From positions 1 to 63,097 of IMG/VR virus record IMGVR_UViG_3300028840_003063: a stretch of DNA of 63,097 bases, one strand, 5' to 3'. Source of the stretch: a virus. Position numbers and translations under genes: made by a program. Numbering within the stretch: the first letter of the stretch is position 1; each line of letters begins with the position of its first letter. The notes under the pieces are model-generated. The model was not told the origin of the DNA. It saw nothing but the letters and a program-made list of their open reading frames with translations, and ran no database searches. Shown piece by piece: positions 9,820-43,557 of the stretch.

Positions 9820-9847
9820 TTGACATACAAAAATAATGTGCTATAAT
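9820..9847 (+). promoter_or_regulatory. Consensus promoter of the structured-RNA cluster
   Basis: TTGACA (9820-9825), 16 bases, TATAAT (9842-9847). The expected start, 6-8 bases on, coincides with the first bases of the closing helix of the first structured RNA (9853). This positioning argues that the RNAs are true transcripts. Confidence 0.8.
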
Positions 9848-9852
9848 TAAAT

Positions 9853-9963
9853 ATAGTTGCTATGTGGCGGACAGATGCTAACGGCCGGTAAGAGTAATAG
9901 GCGTCAAAAAAGGTTGGCTAGCGCCGAATGAAAGGCTAGTAAAGGACTTACCATAGCAACTAT
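9853..9963 (+). ncRNA. Structured tRNA-like RNA A
   Basis: ATAGTTGCTATG (9853-9864) pairs perfectly with CATAGCAACTAT (9952-9963), a 12-bp closing helix. After one T comes a D-arm-like hairpin (GGC...GCC, 9866-9886). GTAAG (9888-9892) pairs with CTTAC (9947-9951), which abuts the closing helix exactly as a T-stem abuts an acceptor stem. Inside lies CTAGC / GCTAG (9918-9922 with 9934-9938). No anticodon arm is recognisable. It starts at a consensus promoter. Confidence 0.7.
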
Positions 9964-9975
9964 TTTATATTCATC

Positions 9976-10026
9976 AATAGCGAAAGTGGGCTTCAAGTTC
10001 TGTTTAGCGAAAGTTAACTAGCTATT
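9976..10026 (+). other. Stem-loop between RNAs A and B
   Basis: AATAGC (9976-9981) pairs with GCTATT (10021-10026) around a 39-base loop that contains a second TAGCGAAAGT; the helix is followed by TTTTG. It could be a spacer, a weak terminator or a degenerate further member of the RNA family. Confidence 0.35.
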
Positions 10027-10034
10027 TTTGAATT

Positions 10035-10148
10035 AAGGCAGGGTGGCGGAATAGAGACGCCTCATGCGCCAAATAAGACATGTGACATTTAAGTATTGTG
10101 CGCCCATAAGTCGCAAAAACTGTAAGAATCGAATCTTACCCCTGCCTT
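10035..10148 (+). ncRNA. Structured tRNA-like RNA B (class II tRNA-derived)
   Basis: AAGGCAGGG (10035-10043) pairs with CCCTGCCTT (10140-10148). It differs from the closing helix of the other three but is fully complementary. TGGCGGAATAGAGACGCC (10044-10061) is close to the start of bacterial tRNA-Leu/Ser but lacks the GG of the D-loop. GTAAG (10122-10126) and CTTAC (10135-10139) enclose AATCGAAT, a T-loop-like octamer retaining TCGA. The roughly 60 bases between show no 5-bp/7-base anticodon arm. A T-run follows (TTTT then TTTTTT). Confidence 0.7.
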
Positions 10149-10164
10149 TTATTTAAGTTTTTTG

Positions 10165-10373
10165 ATAGTTGCTATGTGGCGATATTGCCCTTAATTAGGT
10201 TCGAGTCCTAAGTCTGGGGAAGCGATAATTAAAAGTTATCATCTAGGGAACTAGCCCCAGACATGGTCACAGGGACATCATGTAAGGTGACTATACTAGT
10301 AACATCGTAGTGATGTAAAACAATAATGATAGCCAAAGCGGGCTACTAGTCAAATCCTTACCATAGCAACTAT
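10165..10373 (+). ncRNA. Structured tRNA-like RNA C (largest, 209 nt)
   Basis: It has the same 12-bp closing helix as RNA A (10165-10176 with 10362-10373), the TGGCG start with a GGC/GCC hairpin, and GTAAGG (10282-10287) paired with CCTTAC (10356-10361). Extra domains: a textbook T-arm TTAGG-TTCGAGT-CCTAA, an 8-bp helix GTCTGGGG / CCCCAGAC enclosing hairpins GATAA-TTAAAAG-TTATC and CTAG-GGAA-CTAG, and a 6-bp CTAGTA / TACTAG helix enclosing two more hairpins. No open reading frame explains this stretch. Confidence 0.7.
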
Positions 10374-10399
10374 TTTATTATAAAAAAAGGAGAATTAAT

Positions 10400-10645
10400 A
10401 TGAATAATTTTAAAATTGAATTAGGTACAAAAGTAAAAAGCAATATATCGGGCTTTAAGGGTATTGTTGTATCAAGATCAGAGCATCTTAATGGATGTTA
10501 TAGATATTGGGTTGCACCAAAAGTTGATAAAGATGGTAAGTTACCTGATGGTTATTGGTTTGATGAGCATGAATTAGAAATTATTGAACTTAAAATAAAA
10601 TCAAAGAAGGTTAATACTGGTGGATTTCCATCAAATATAAAATAA
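10400..10645 (+). CDS. SH3-like phage protein, 81 aa (paralogue of 57844-58110)
   Basis: Start after AAAAGGAGAATT. The pattern FKIELGTKVKSNISGFKGIVVSR, HLNGCYRYWV, GYWFDEHELEII is a small beta-barrel common in phages, with a conserved NGC-R-Y turn. A diverged second copy lies in the leftward operon. The gene sits between structured RNAs C and D, which suggests they are co-transcribed. Function unknown; KOW/SH3-like folds often bind RNA or protein. Confidence 0.7.
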   Translation: MNNFKIELGTKVKSNISGFKGIVVSRSEHLNGCYRYWVAPKVDKDGKLPDGYWFDEHELEIIELKIKSKKVNTGGFPSNIK

Positions 10646-10651
10646 AAAAAA

Positions 10652-10712
10652 TGGAGCCACAATCCTTAACTGTGTTGGCATCTTTGAAGATTAGATGAAG
10701 GGACAAGACCTG
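10652..10712 (+). other. Two small hairpins upstream of RNA D
   Basis: CACA / TGTG with flanking GCC / GGC, and CATCT / AGATG around a nine-base loop, lie between the SH3-like gene and RNA D. They could be a leader or processing element. No coding frame is evident. Confidence 0.3.
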
Positions 10713-10720
10713 AAATTAAA

Positions 10721-10864
10721 ATAGTTGCTATGTGGCGGAATAGAGACGCCCTATGCGAAGTAGTAACTTTGCCATAAGTAATACGCGTGGCTTATGGGTA
10801 ACAGAGCGAGAAAACATAGAGCTATGATCAAGATGTAAGTATCAAATCTTACCATAGCAACTAT
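10721..10864 (+). ncRNA. Structured tRNA-like RNA D
   Basis: It has the 12-bp closing helix of A and C (10721-10732 with 10853-10864). The 18 bases TGGCGGAATAGAGACGCC (10733-10750) are identical to RNA B. GTAAG (10835-10839) and CTTAC (10848-10852) enclose TATCAAAT. The middle folds into GCGAAG / CTTTGC, CCATAAG / CTTATGG and CATA-GAGC-TATG hairpins. It ends 20 bases before the GIY-YIG gene. Confidence 0.7.
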
Positions 10865-10883: not shown

Positions 10884-11705
10884 ATGCAAGTATTTTGTCC
10901 ATACGCAAATCCACAAAAAATGGGTTATATTTATAAAATCACAAATGTTATAAATAATAAAATATATATAGGACAAAGAAAAGGATTACCAAACGAAACT
11001 AAAAATTACTATGGTTCTGGAAAAATCATAAAAAGAGCAATCGTAAAATATGGGGATAAAAATTTTATAAAAGAAATATTAAATATTTCATTTAGGCATA
11101 ATTTAAATTTTTTAGAAAAATTTTGGATAAATTATTTTAAACAAAATAATTTTATATTATATAATATAGGGGATGGCGGTTTAGGAAATAATGGCGGATA
11201 TAATAAAGGGAAAAAATTATCAATAGAAACAAAAAATAAAATCAGTAAGGCATTACAAAATATTAAAAGGTCAGAAAATTTTAAAAATAAAATAAGTAAA
11301 ACATTAAAAAGAAAATATAAAAACGGAGAACGATTACCAGCAAATTTAAATAAAAACATGTCTAATAAAACAAAAATAAAAATGAGTATTTCTCATAAGG
11401 GTATGGTGTTTTCAGAAGAACACAAACAAAAATTAAGTCAATTACATATAGGAAAACCAAAAAGCAAAGAACACAAACAAAAATTAAGGGAAGCTAAGTT
11501 AGGGAAAAAACAATCAAATATCCATATTGAAAAAAGAATAGAAAAAATAAGAGGTAAAATATATATAACTAAACAAGAAAAATGGGATAGAATAGGTAAA
11601 ACACAAGAAGAATGTTTGTGTGGATGTGGATTAAAATGTCATAAATTATTTTATCATGGGCATAATTCAAGATATAAACATCCTAGTAAATATAAAGGAG
11701 AATAA
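10884..11705 (+). CDS. GIY-YIG homing endonuclease with NUMOD3 repeats, 273 aa
   Basis: GIY-YIG domain near residues 13-95 (GYIYKITN, KIYIGQRKG, with E68-type FLEKFWI) followed by NUMOD3 DNA-binding repeats (FSEEHKQKLSQLHIGK, SKEHKQKLREAKLGK) and a C-terminal CLCGCG cysteine segment. The first 11 residues, MQVFCPYANPQ, do not belong to the endonuclease; they copy the start of the next gene (VQIFVPFAQPY). The insert therefore captured or regenerated the start of its host gene. Confidence 0.88.
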   Translation: MQVFCPYANPQKMGYIYKITNVINNKIYIGQRKGLPNETKNYYGSGKIIKRAIVKYGDKNFIKEILNISFRHNLNFLEKFWINYFKQNNFILYNIGDGGLGNNGGYNKGKKLSIETKNKISKALQNIKRSENFKNKISKTLKRKYKNGERLPANLNKNMSNKTKIKMSISHKGMVFSEEHKQKLSQLHIGKPKSKEHKQKLREAKLGKKQSNIHIEKRIEKIRGKIYITKQEKWDRIGKTQEECLCGCGLKCHKLFYHGHNSRYKHPSKYKGE

Positions 11706-13315: not shown

Positions 13316-14218
13316 ATGAGCAGTTATCATAGCTATCCAAAAGTGTTTGCATTAGGTCATGCAATGATAAAAAATATTTTTATGGATAACGTAATAGTTC
13401 AAGAAAAAATAGACGGAAGCCAGTTTTCTTTTGGCGTTTTTGATGGTGAAATAAAATGTAGGTCGAAAGGTAAGCAAATTCAACTAGATAATCCAGAAAA
13501 AATGTTTAAAGAAGCAATTCAAACAGTGATAATGTTAAAAGATAAATTAAAAAACGGGTGGACTTATAGGGGGGAATACTTAAAAAAACCTCAACATAAT
13601 ACGTTAAAATATAATAGGATTCCCAAAAACCATATTATAATTTTTGATATAAACATTGAGCAAGAAGACTATTTAAATTATGAAGAGGTGGAAAAAGAAT
13701 GTGATCGCCTTGGCCTTGAATGTGTACCCAAGTTTTATGAAGGTGAGATTAAAAACACGGATAAAGTATTATCATTTTTAGAAAATGAATCTGTATTAGG
13801 TGGCTGTAAAATAGAGGGTATGGTTTTTAAAAATTATAATCAAGTGGGTGTTGATGGCAAAGTATTAATGGGCAAATATGTATCAGAAAAATTTAAAGAA
13901 ATACACAATAAGGTTTGGAAAGAAAAAAATCCCACAAAAAAAGATATTATTCAACTTATAATAGCATCATTAAAAACGGAAGCAAGATGGGAAAAATCTA
14001 TACAACATTTAAAAGAAAAAAGCCTGTTATTAAATGAGACAAAAGATATTGGTAATTTAATAAAAGAAATACAGGAAGATATTAAGAATGAATGTAATGA
14101 TTACATAAAAGAAAAATTATATAACTATGCAATAAATCAAATATTAAGGGGATGCGTTTCTGGTTTTCCAGAATGGTATAAGGGGAAATTATTAGAAAAT
14201 CAATTTAAAAATAAATAG
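13316..14218 (+). CDS. RNA ligase (Rnl2-like nucleotidyltransferase), 300 aa
   Basis: Motif I EKIDG with the AMP-accepting lysine K31, motif III TYRGEY (83-88), IIIFDI (107-112), motif IV EGMVFKNY (167-174) and motif V MGKYV (185-189). The C-terminal 100 residues are a helical appendage. RNA ligases of this type seal nicked or cleaved RNAs, often tRNAs cut by host defence nucleases. The phage also carries a tRNA, tRNA-like RNAs and a kinase-like P-loop gene, so an RNA-repair role is plausible but inferred. Confidence 0.82.
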   Translation: MSSYHSYPKVFALGHAMIKNIFMDNVIVQEKIDGSQFSFGVFDGEIKCRSKGKQIQLDNPEKMFKEAIQTVIMLKDKLKNGWTYRGEYLKKPQHNTLKYNRIPKNHIIIFDINIEQEDYLNYEEVEKECDRLGLECVPKFYEGEIKNTDKVLSFLENESVLGGCKIEGMVFKNYNQVGVDGKVLMGKYVSEKFKEIHNKVWKEKNPTKKDIIQLIIASLKTEARWEKSIQHLKEKSLLLNETKDIGNLIKEIQEDIKNECNDYIKEKLYNYAINQILRGCVSGFPEWYKGKLLENQFKNK

Positions 14219-33080: not shown

Positions 33081-33548
33081 ATGAAAAGATGCACCAAGTG
33101 CTTTAAACTAAAAACTCTCGACGGATTTAGTTTTAAGAATAAACAAAAAAATAAATATAACTCTTTTTGCAAAGAGTGCCGGAATAAATATAGCCGAGAA
33201 GTATGGTATCCAAAGAATAAAGAAAAGCACAAAGAAGCATCAAGAGTATGGAAAAAAAACAATAAGTTTAAAAAATTAAGCAAAAAGTATAATTTATGTG
33301 AACAAAAAATAATGAATGCTTATTTAAACCCTAATAACATTTGCCCTATTTGTAAAAAAACAAGCAGCCTAATTTTGGATCATTGCCATGAAGAGGATAG
33401 ATTTAGGGGTTTTATATGTAATACATGCAACACAATGATAGGTAGATTAGGAGATACAGAGCAAGAGATTTTAACATCAATCAATAATATTGTTGAATAT
33501 TTAAAAATAGAACACCGTGAAGCAGCGGCCAGCTTGCGAGCCTCATAA
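33081..33548 (+). CDS. Endonuclease VII-like HNH nuclease, 155 aa
   Basis: An N-terminal zinc finger (C4-x2-C7, C30-x2-C33) precedes the endonuclease VII fold: C88-x2-C91, DHCH (100-103), RGFICNTCN (109-117). The family resolves branched DNA or acts as a homing enzyme. The last twelve codons (from about 33513) lie within the tRNA gene, and the TAA stop is part of the tRNA anticodon loop. Confidence 0.8.
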   Translation: MKRCTKCFKLKTLDGFSFKNKQKNKYNSFCKECRNKYSREVWYPKNKEKHKEASRVWKKNNKFKKLSKKYNLCEQKIMNAYLNPNNICPICKKTSSLILDHCHEEDRFRGFICNTCNTMIGRLGDTEQEILTSINNIVEYLKIEHREAAASLRAS

Positions 33549-42502: not shown

Positions 42503-43557
42503 TGAGTTTTTCATATAACTTAAATTTAAAAAGCAAAATATTACAAACTGTTTCATCCCCTGTTCAAGGTACACTAACATATGCGGGAAATATACAAGAT
42601 GCGACAAATTGTGATAATCCAACAGGCATAAAGATAAATTCGGCTAATAGTAAAATATATATATCACAATATGACGATGATTCTGCTAGTTGGTGGGGCG
42701 TAAGTTCAGGCGAGCCTTCTTATGTTGGAGAATACTCAAACTCTAATATAAACGGTGCAAACGAAATATTATTATCAGTAGATGAAGGTAACGCATATGT
42801 TGTGGCGGAAGTAGACACCATAGTTTGGTTTACGCTTAATAGCTCTGACGGCTCGCTTAGTTATGTTAGCAAACATACATCAACAGACATAGATGGCGCT
42901 ATTAATATGGGTATTAGCAACGATAACGATCACGTTTATGTTTTAAGCAAAAACAATAACGCTGTTAGTTGGTATGATCGCAGCACTTCTGATGGAAGCC
43001 TTTCTTATGTTGGGCAATATTCGGACGCAAACATAGCGTTCCCCAGATCAATAGTTTTTTCGTCAGAGTCAACAATGGCTTATATTTGTGGTAGAAATGC
43101 GAACTCAATATCTTGGTTAACAAGAAGTACAGCGGACGGGAGTTTAACTTTTGTTGACAATATAGTATCAACAGCGTTAGATGATGTATGGACACTATGT
43201 ACAAACCCAACTTATAGCAATGTTTATGCGGTGGCTTGGACTGGAAATAAAGTAAACACGTTTACAATTAATAGTTCAGATGGTAGTTTAACGCTACTAC
43301 AATCATTAGATAATACCGGCGCTTATGGGGTAGCCTGTTCAAAAGATGGTAATAATATATATGTATCTAGTAGAGAAAGTAATACAATATCATGGTATAG
43401 TGTTAATAGTTCAGATGGAAGCTTAGAATTTGTTGATAATTACACAAGCAGCAATATAGCGGGCGCCAATCAAATAGCAATATCAAACGATGATAAATAT
43501 GTATATATTGTAGGAAGCTCTGGCGATTTGGTAGCTTGGTTTAATAGAACAACATAG
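42499..43557 (+). CDS. Beta-propeller (lactonase/YVTN-like) protein, 352 aa
   Basis: Seven-fold repeating units of about 45 residues with ...SSDGSLSYVG-x-Y and NDNDHVYVLSKNNNAVSWY motifs indicate a beta-propeller. It lies in the head/decoration segment and follows a four-base overlap. Propellers in virions may bind host sugars or decorate the capsid. No signal peptide. Confidence 0.75.
   Translation: MMSFSYNLNLKSKILQTVSSPVQGTLTYAGNIQDATNCDNPTGIKINSANSKIYISQYDDDSASWWGVSSGEPSYVGEYSNSNINGANEILLSVDEGNAYVVAEVDTIVWFTLNSSDGSLSYVSKHTSTDIDGAINMGISNDNDHVYVLSKNNNAVSWYDRSTSDGSLSYVGQYSDANIAFPRSIVFSSESTMAYICGRNANSISWLTRSTADGSLTFVDNIVSTALDDVWTLCTNPTYSNVYAVAWTGNKVNTFTINSSDGSLTLLQSLDNTGAYGVACSKDGNNIYVSSRESNTISWYSVNSSDGSLEFVDNYTSSNIAGANQIAISNDDKYVYIVGSSGDLVAWFNRTT

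Follow-up and report, generated by a model that had tools for sequence, protein, structure and literature searches.

YrlA, a bacterial Y RNA and tRNA mimic, keeps the D-arm and the T-arm of a tRNA and lacks the anticodon arm. The species 1 RNA of phage T4 (rnaC) is expressed late and is of unknown function (PMC9697503, PMC3014915), and the irregular allo-tRNA-like polycistrons form arrays of tRNA-like RNAs some of which are not aminoacylated in vitro (Mukai 2017, reviewed in PMC7609411). The window analysed here, the whole 63,097 bp of an IMG/VR virus record in which the terminase, portal and head genes of a phage are present, has four structured RNA elements on the + strand, with a DNA methylase fragment on one side of them and a GIY-YIG homing endonuclease gene on the other (Table 1). 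Elements 2 and 4 fully belong to a phage RNA family in which an acceptor, a D-arm, a T-arm and the tertiary signature of tRNA are combined with an alternative elbow and with an exchangeable core in place of the anticodon arm; elements 1 and 3 are divergent and have the outer frame in common with them.

A preliminary description of this DNA had proposed four structured, tRNA-like RNAs with no anticodon arm, and this holds: the elements lie where it placed them, their folds beat dinucleotide shuffles, and the closing helices fall in its range of 9-12 bp, with 12 bp in elements 1, 3 and 4 (ATAGTTGCTATG/CATAGCAACTAT) and 9 bp in element 2 (AAGGCAGGG/CCCTGCCTT). The one plan it gave to all four stands for elements 2 and 4 and reduces to the outer frame in elements 1 and 3, and similarly the T-stem said to abut the closing helix is found in the T-arms of elements 2 and 4 and is opened by a long insert in the other two. 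The two octamer T-loops are present as described, in elements 2 and 4, but the supposed GGC/GCC hairpin of the D-arm is in fact a GCG/CGC D-stem in both. Element 3 has a canonical T-arm (TAGGTTCGAGTCCTA) inside its core, and in the sequence L169 the element-3 T-arm occurs without the insert (GTAAGGTGCAAATCCTTAC).

Table 1. Features of the element array and its surroundings in the window; z is the minimum free energy z-score against dinucleotide shuffles, and R1 is the covariance model described in the text.
Feature	Position	Strand	Remarks
Predicted sigma-70 promoter	9820..9847	+	TTGACA-16-TATAAT, extended -10 (TGC); 12/12 consensus matches, TG before second hexamer
Element 1, divergent	9853..9963	+	12-bp closing helix 9853-9864/9952-9963, T8; z -2.2
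Element 1, T-stem halves	9888-9892/9947-9951	+	GTAAG/CTTAC, long insert between
Element 2, full member	10035..10148	+	R1 match; z -3.75
Element 2, acceptor	10037-10043/10140-10146	+
Element 2, D-arm	10046-10060	+
Element 2, core	10061-10121	+
Element 2, T-arm	10122-10139	+	loop AATCGAAT
Element 3, divergent	10165..10373	+	12-bp closing helix; z -4.7
Element 3, canonical T-arm in core	10196-10210	+
Element 3, T-stem	10282-10287/10356-10361	+	GTAAGG/CCTTAC, opened by insert
81-aa ORF	10400..10645	+	PHROG of unknown function; between elements 3 and 4
Element 4, full member	10721..10864	+	R1 match; z -3.7
Element 4, acceptor	10721-10732/10853-10864	+
Element 4, D-arm	10735-10749	+
Element 4, core	10750-10834	+
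Element 4, T-arm	10835-10852	+	loop TATCAAAT
GIY-YIG/NUMOD3 homing endonuclease gene	10884..11705	+	immediately 3' of element 4

Membership of the family is decided by an external covariance model (R1), trained without the lineage of the window, which describes an acceptor, U8, a 3-bp D-stem with a GAA..AGA loop and a 5-bp T-stem with the 8-nt loop NNTCRANY. A covariance model was among the checks proposed with the preliminary description, and R1 matches phage relatives as well as element 2 (59 bits, E 6.7e-14) and element 4 (58 bits, E 1.3e-13), which satisfy the definition, and does not match elements 1 and 3, though these have the acceptor and the CTTAC end of the T-stem in common with the family. 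A further R1 match, weak and within an ORF (42796-42887 of the window), was disregarded. At 9970-10030, in the spacer of elements 1 and 2, a 60-nt segment ends in AATAGC/GCTATT and contains TAGCGAAAGT twice; it may be a further small RNA or else an attenuator. An RNA ligase gene (PF09414) is found 2.5 kb downstream of the array, at 13316-14218.

Across the family the acceptor has 7 bp (9-12 in the window), with all four Watson-Crick pair types occurring in it, and is followed by U8-G9 and the D-arm, then by a core of ~20-200 nt where a tRNA has its anticodon arm, and lastly by U48 and the T-arm, whose loop is the 8-nt TATCRAAY. The D-arm, GCGGAA..AGACGC with a 3-bp stem, matches that of tRNA-Leu, a type II tRNA and the likely ancestor, but the family differs from tRNA-Leu in the absence of the anticodon arm and of G18-G19 and in the 8-nt T-loop. 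In 34 members the positions U8, A14, A15 (R15-Y48), A21, U48, G53-C61, C56 and A58 are invariant or nearly so, and these make up the core tertiary signature of tRNA (RF00005). The contact of G18-G19 with Psi55-C56 of a 7-nt T-loop is not found in the family: among 82 elements 59 have no GG in the D-loop and an 8-nt T-loop, 12 sister elements keep both the GG and the 7-nt loop, and 11 are mixed. Loss of the GG and the 8-nt loop thus go together (Fisher p 7e-7, not corrected for phylogeny), which argues for a real, altered elbow.

It is very unlikely that the elements work as tRNAs of an unusual kind, or that they are pre-tRNAs whose anticodon arm holds an intron. In favour of such tRNAs are the tRNA-Leu-like D-arm, an encoded ACCA end in a few members and a complete tRNA-Val(aac) gene nested in the core of one (L049:2766-2838). 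However ARAGORN calls only two of 65 elements, one of these being the nested tRNA, and calls no more when introns are allowed, and most members have no encoded CCA even where the adjacent tRNAs encode it. In the window ARAGORN makes no call on the four elements, its sole call being a tRNA-Met at 33511, and Rfam 15 has no match to the elements, whether at gathering thresholds or with E relaxed to 5, so both the absence of canonical tRNA calls and the absence of a fitting known family are borne out. The 7-nt anticodon loop of RF00005 is missing also from the compact copies of S-CAM9 and phAPEC8, predicted cloverleafs that have a short UUCG- or AAGA-capped hairpin for an anticodon arm; if these predictions hold, no decoding would be possible. 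In phAPEC8 there is also a second unannotated tRNA-like gene (L456:3425-3493), in which the T-loop is canonical and a CACAA-TTTA-TTGTG hairpin takes the place of the anticodon arm.

The family is phage-borne and rare in chromosomes. An exact search of IMG/VR for the D-arm motif common to elements 2 and 4 gave 19 contigs, most of them with the same plan, and since searches with the T-arm recover the same D-arm and searches with the D-arm recover the same 8-nt T-loop, neither end is an artefact of searching with the other. In 3.06 Mb a scanner for the combination of acceptor, U8, D-stem and T-arm gives 66 elements; on reversed sequence it gives none. Relatives matched by R1 include Phapecoctavirus, the cyanophage S-CAM9 and the Levilactobacillus phage ENFP1; in phAPEC8 and ~75 relatives, in S-CAM9 and in ENFP1 the element sits unannotated within tRNA clusters, as R1 confirms. 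Arrays are common, and one phage (L278) has at least 12 elements by R1. No named phage with DNA similarity to the element flanks was found, nor was a description of the family found in the literature searched, a search largely outside the subscription journals. A genome-wide chromosomal role was considered and rejected: 85 D-arm matches in the genome collection came down to two complete elements with the 8-nt loop, both from Sphingobacterium, the other matches being about as many as expected by chance in 257 Gb, and among 151 genomes of the Sphingobacterium family the one positive was the query itself. Upstream of the elements in Sphingobacterium hungaricum (L189:4150-4620) are two more structured RNAs with AAACAACCNT/ANGGTTGTTT closing helices, in a region with few long ORFs.

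Once the core is removed, 98.8% of the cells in an alignment of 34 members are paired and 12 of the 15 pairs change on both sides, counts that are partly inflated because the scanner demanded pairing of the acceptor and the T-stem; the covariation score is 0.675 as against 0.145 for shuffled and 0.086-0.136 for slid pairings. As R1 was made without the lineage of the window its matches there are free of this caveat. A Justusliebigvirus orthologue has compensatory changes in acceptor and T-stem and another hairpin, and homologues with compensatory changes, which the preliminary description had looked to for support of a family, do therefore exist. Decaying tRNA pseudogenes, which could explain the divergence of elements 1 and 3 and the missing anticodon, are the least probable of the readings weighed here and are already contradicted by this strong covariation; the D- and T-loops are also invariant across unrelated phages, and there are arrays of 12 or more elements, and predicted promoters.

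The core behaves otherwise, and by sequence comparison is swapped whole between sister phages. At the orthologous loci L011/L056 the flanks are 96.3% and 99.7% identical, and at L018/L026 88.5% and 99.7%, while in both pairs the identity of the cores is that of shuffled sequence; L015 and L354 have upstream flanks that are 94.7% alike, and differing cores. Where a core is retained it may exceed its flanks, with 95.9% against 85% and 73% in L034/L077 and 96.5% against 86% and 79% in L085/L097, and some core modules recur in unrelated frames (L018/L019). No k-mer is common to the cores above shuffles, bar a borderline GCCCATAA, and the cores are weakly structured (mean MFE z -0.56). Hypervariable, swapped cores within a constant frame are what an antisense sRNA on a tRNA scaffold might show, its core pairing with host or rival-phage RNAs and its frame merely stabilising. 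This seems rather improbable, as the cores of the window have no antisense match beyond chance to the rest of their own genome and the compact members carry only a tetraloop hairpin. A broader proposal, which we regard as possible but doubtful, is that the tandem tRNA-framed RNAs have cores that serve as cassettes: phages would exchange these whole, by recombination via the conserved D- and T-arms, and would so possess an adjustable set of RNA effectors against host defences, with T4 rnaC a distant relative in strategy.

The closing helix of element 1 follows a predicted promoter at a distance of 5 nt, and the start is therefore expected at the first base pairs of the RNA. Promoters are placed in the same way relative to the element in L308, L314, L004 and L121; a boxA-like TTCTTTGAA is found upstream of some members, and TCTTTGA in only 5 of ~62. 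The 81-aa ORF probably shares a transcript with the elements. This ORF is bracketed by elements 3 and 4, the nearest upstream ORF is co-directional in 47 of 62 cases, and the phAPEC8, ENFP1 and S-CAM9 copies lie between tRNA genes, all of which would suit a cis-acting tRNA punctuation in which the elements supply only RNase P and RNase Z sites, at which tRNAs and mRNAs are released from a polycistronic phage transcript, and the core is filler. We consider this unlikely, if still a serious proposal, and together with the antisense scaffold it is the main rival to a tRNA mimic. Filler should drift, and not be swapped whole beside flanks up to 99.7% identical, some cores are better conserved than their flanks, and several elements have predicted promoters of their own that start exactly at the helix. 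RNase P measures the 12-bp acceptor plus T-stem, and the closing helices of 10-14 bp in the lineage of the window are ill-suited to it.

The interpretation that we tentatively prefer, holding it at a little below an even chance, is that the elements are trans-acting, anticodon-less tRNA mimics for phage-host conflict. Compact members are about as small as an acceptor, an elbow and a capped stem, and the conserved function should therefore reside in the tRNA-like half; the core, being replaced whole, would then be the cargo or the part exposed to conflict. No conserved partner protein was found near the elements, and so host factors are the likely contacts, which favours the anticodon-less mimic. 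With its own promoter or as part of a tRNA operon the RNA might be transcribed and fold as the upper half of the tRNA L, and could then act in trans by occupying host or defence proteins that read the tRNA elbow and acceptor; the swapped core would confer specificity for the target or serve to escape recognition in an arms race of phage and host. Against such a mimic are the weak structure of the cores and the position of some members between tRNA genes or ORFs, which would fit a processing role equally well. The decoy, regulator and anti-defence roles suggested earlier for the elements are all possible on the sequences at hand. Whichever applies, this is an RNA family overlooked by tRNA finders and by Rfam and apparently widespread in phage genomes, whose elbow departs from the normal tRNA form and whose core has a turnover as fast as that of conflict genes. 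Its function is amenable to genetics, as ~75 Phapecoctavirus records have copies in their tRNA clusters and some of these phages were isolated on E. coli K-12; in the Phapecoctavirus 'ukendt' (NC_052661) the element spans about 76 nt, at about 94,636-94,711.

Among the known RNAs, YrlA and tmRNA are naturally occurring tRNA-like modules whose anticodon arm has been replaced, tmRNA having an acceptor and T-arm with an insert in its place, and a relative of either is highly improbable and mostly refuted as an explanation. YrlA works with Ro60, whereas a Ro60 (TROVE, PF05731) gene is absent from the window record; the Rfam model of YrlA matches neither the window (E up to 5) nor any of six relatives (E up to 2), and the elbow differs, so that the Y-RNA-like scaffold offered in the preliminary description is not supported. 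In contrast to tmRNA the short cores of the family hold no tag frame, many being too short for one, and the elements have no Rfam tmRNA match, although a permuted tmRNA match (49.6 bits, cut-off 47) adjoins two members on a phage contig (L450:2217-2429), right after these elements and before a tRNA gene. ARAGORN calls a permuted tmRNA with a tag ending RLAA beside another element (L012:1832-2203). The allo-tRNA-like polycistrons are likewise arrays of irregular tRNA-like genes, but with anticodons of their own and 8/4 or 9/3 acceptor domains. As for T4, its species 2 RNA (rnaD) has no tRNA-like frame of this kind; a T4 rnaD-like sequence lies right 3' of the element in Acinetobacter phage ABPW7 (L462:1930-2060; GAAACAGGGTCGCTCCCTGTAAGTCGTCC vs GAAACCGGGTCGCTACCGGTAAGTCGTCG), a similarity which suggests that rnaD homologues exist beyond T4. 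The T4 tRNA region (L460) has no R1 match at E up to 1, and rnaC is for this reason not counted as a member; it has a canonical 7-nt T-loop and no GCG-GAA D-arm. As a 139-nt RNA of a phage tRNA cluster, with the T-arm CCGGG TTCGAAT CCCGG and a predicted fold that has no anticodon arm, rnaC is nevertheless the closest precedent for the family, and the family in turn provides a context for T4's stable RNAs.
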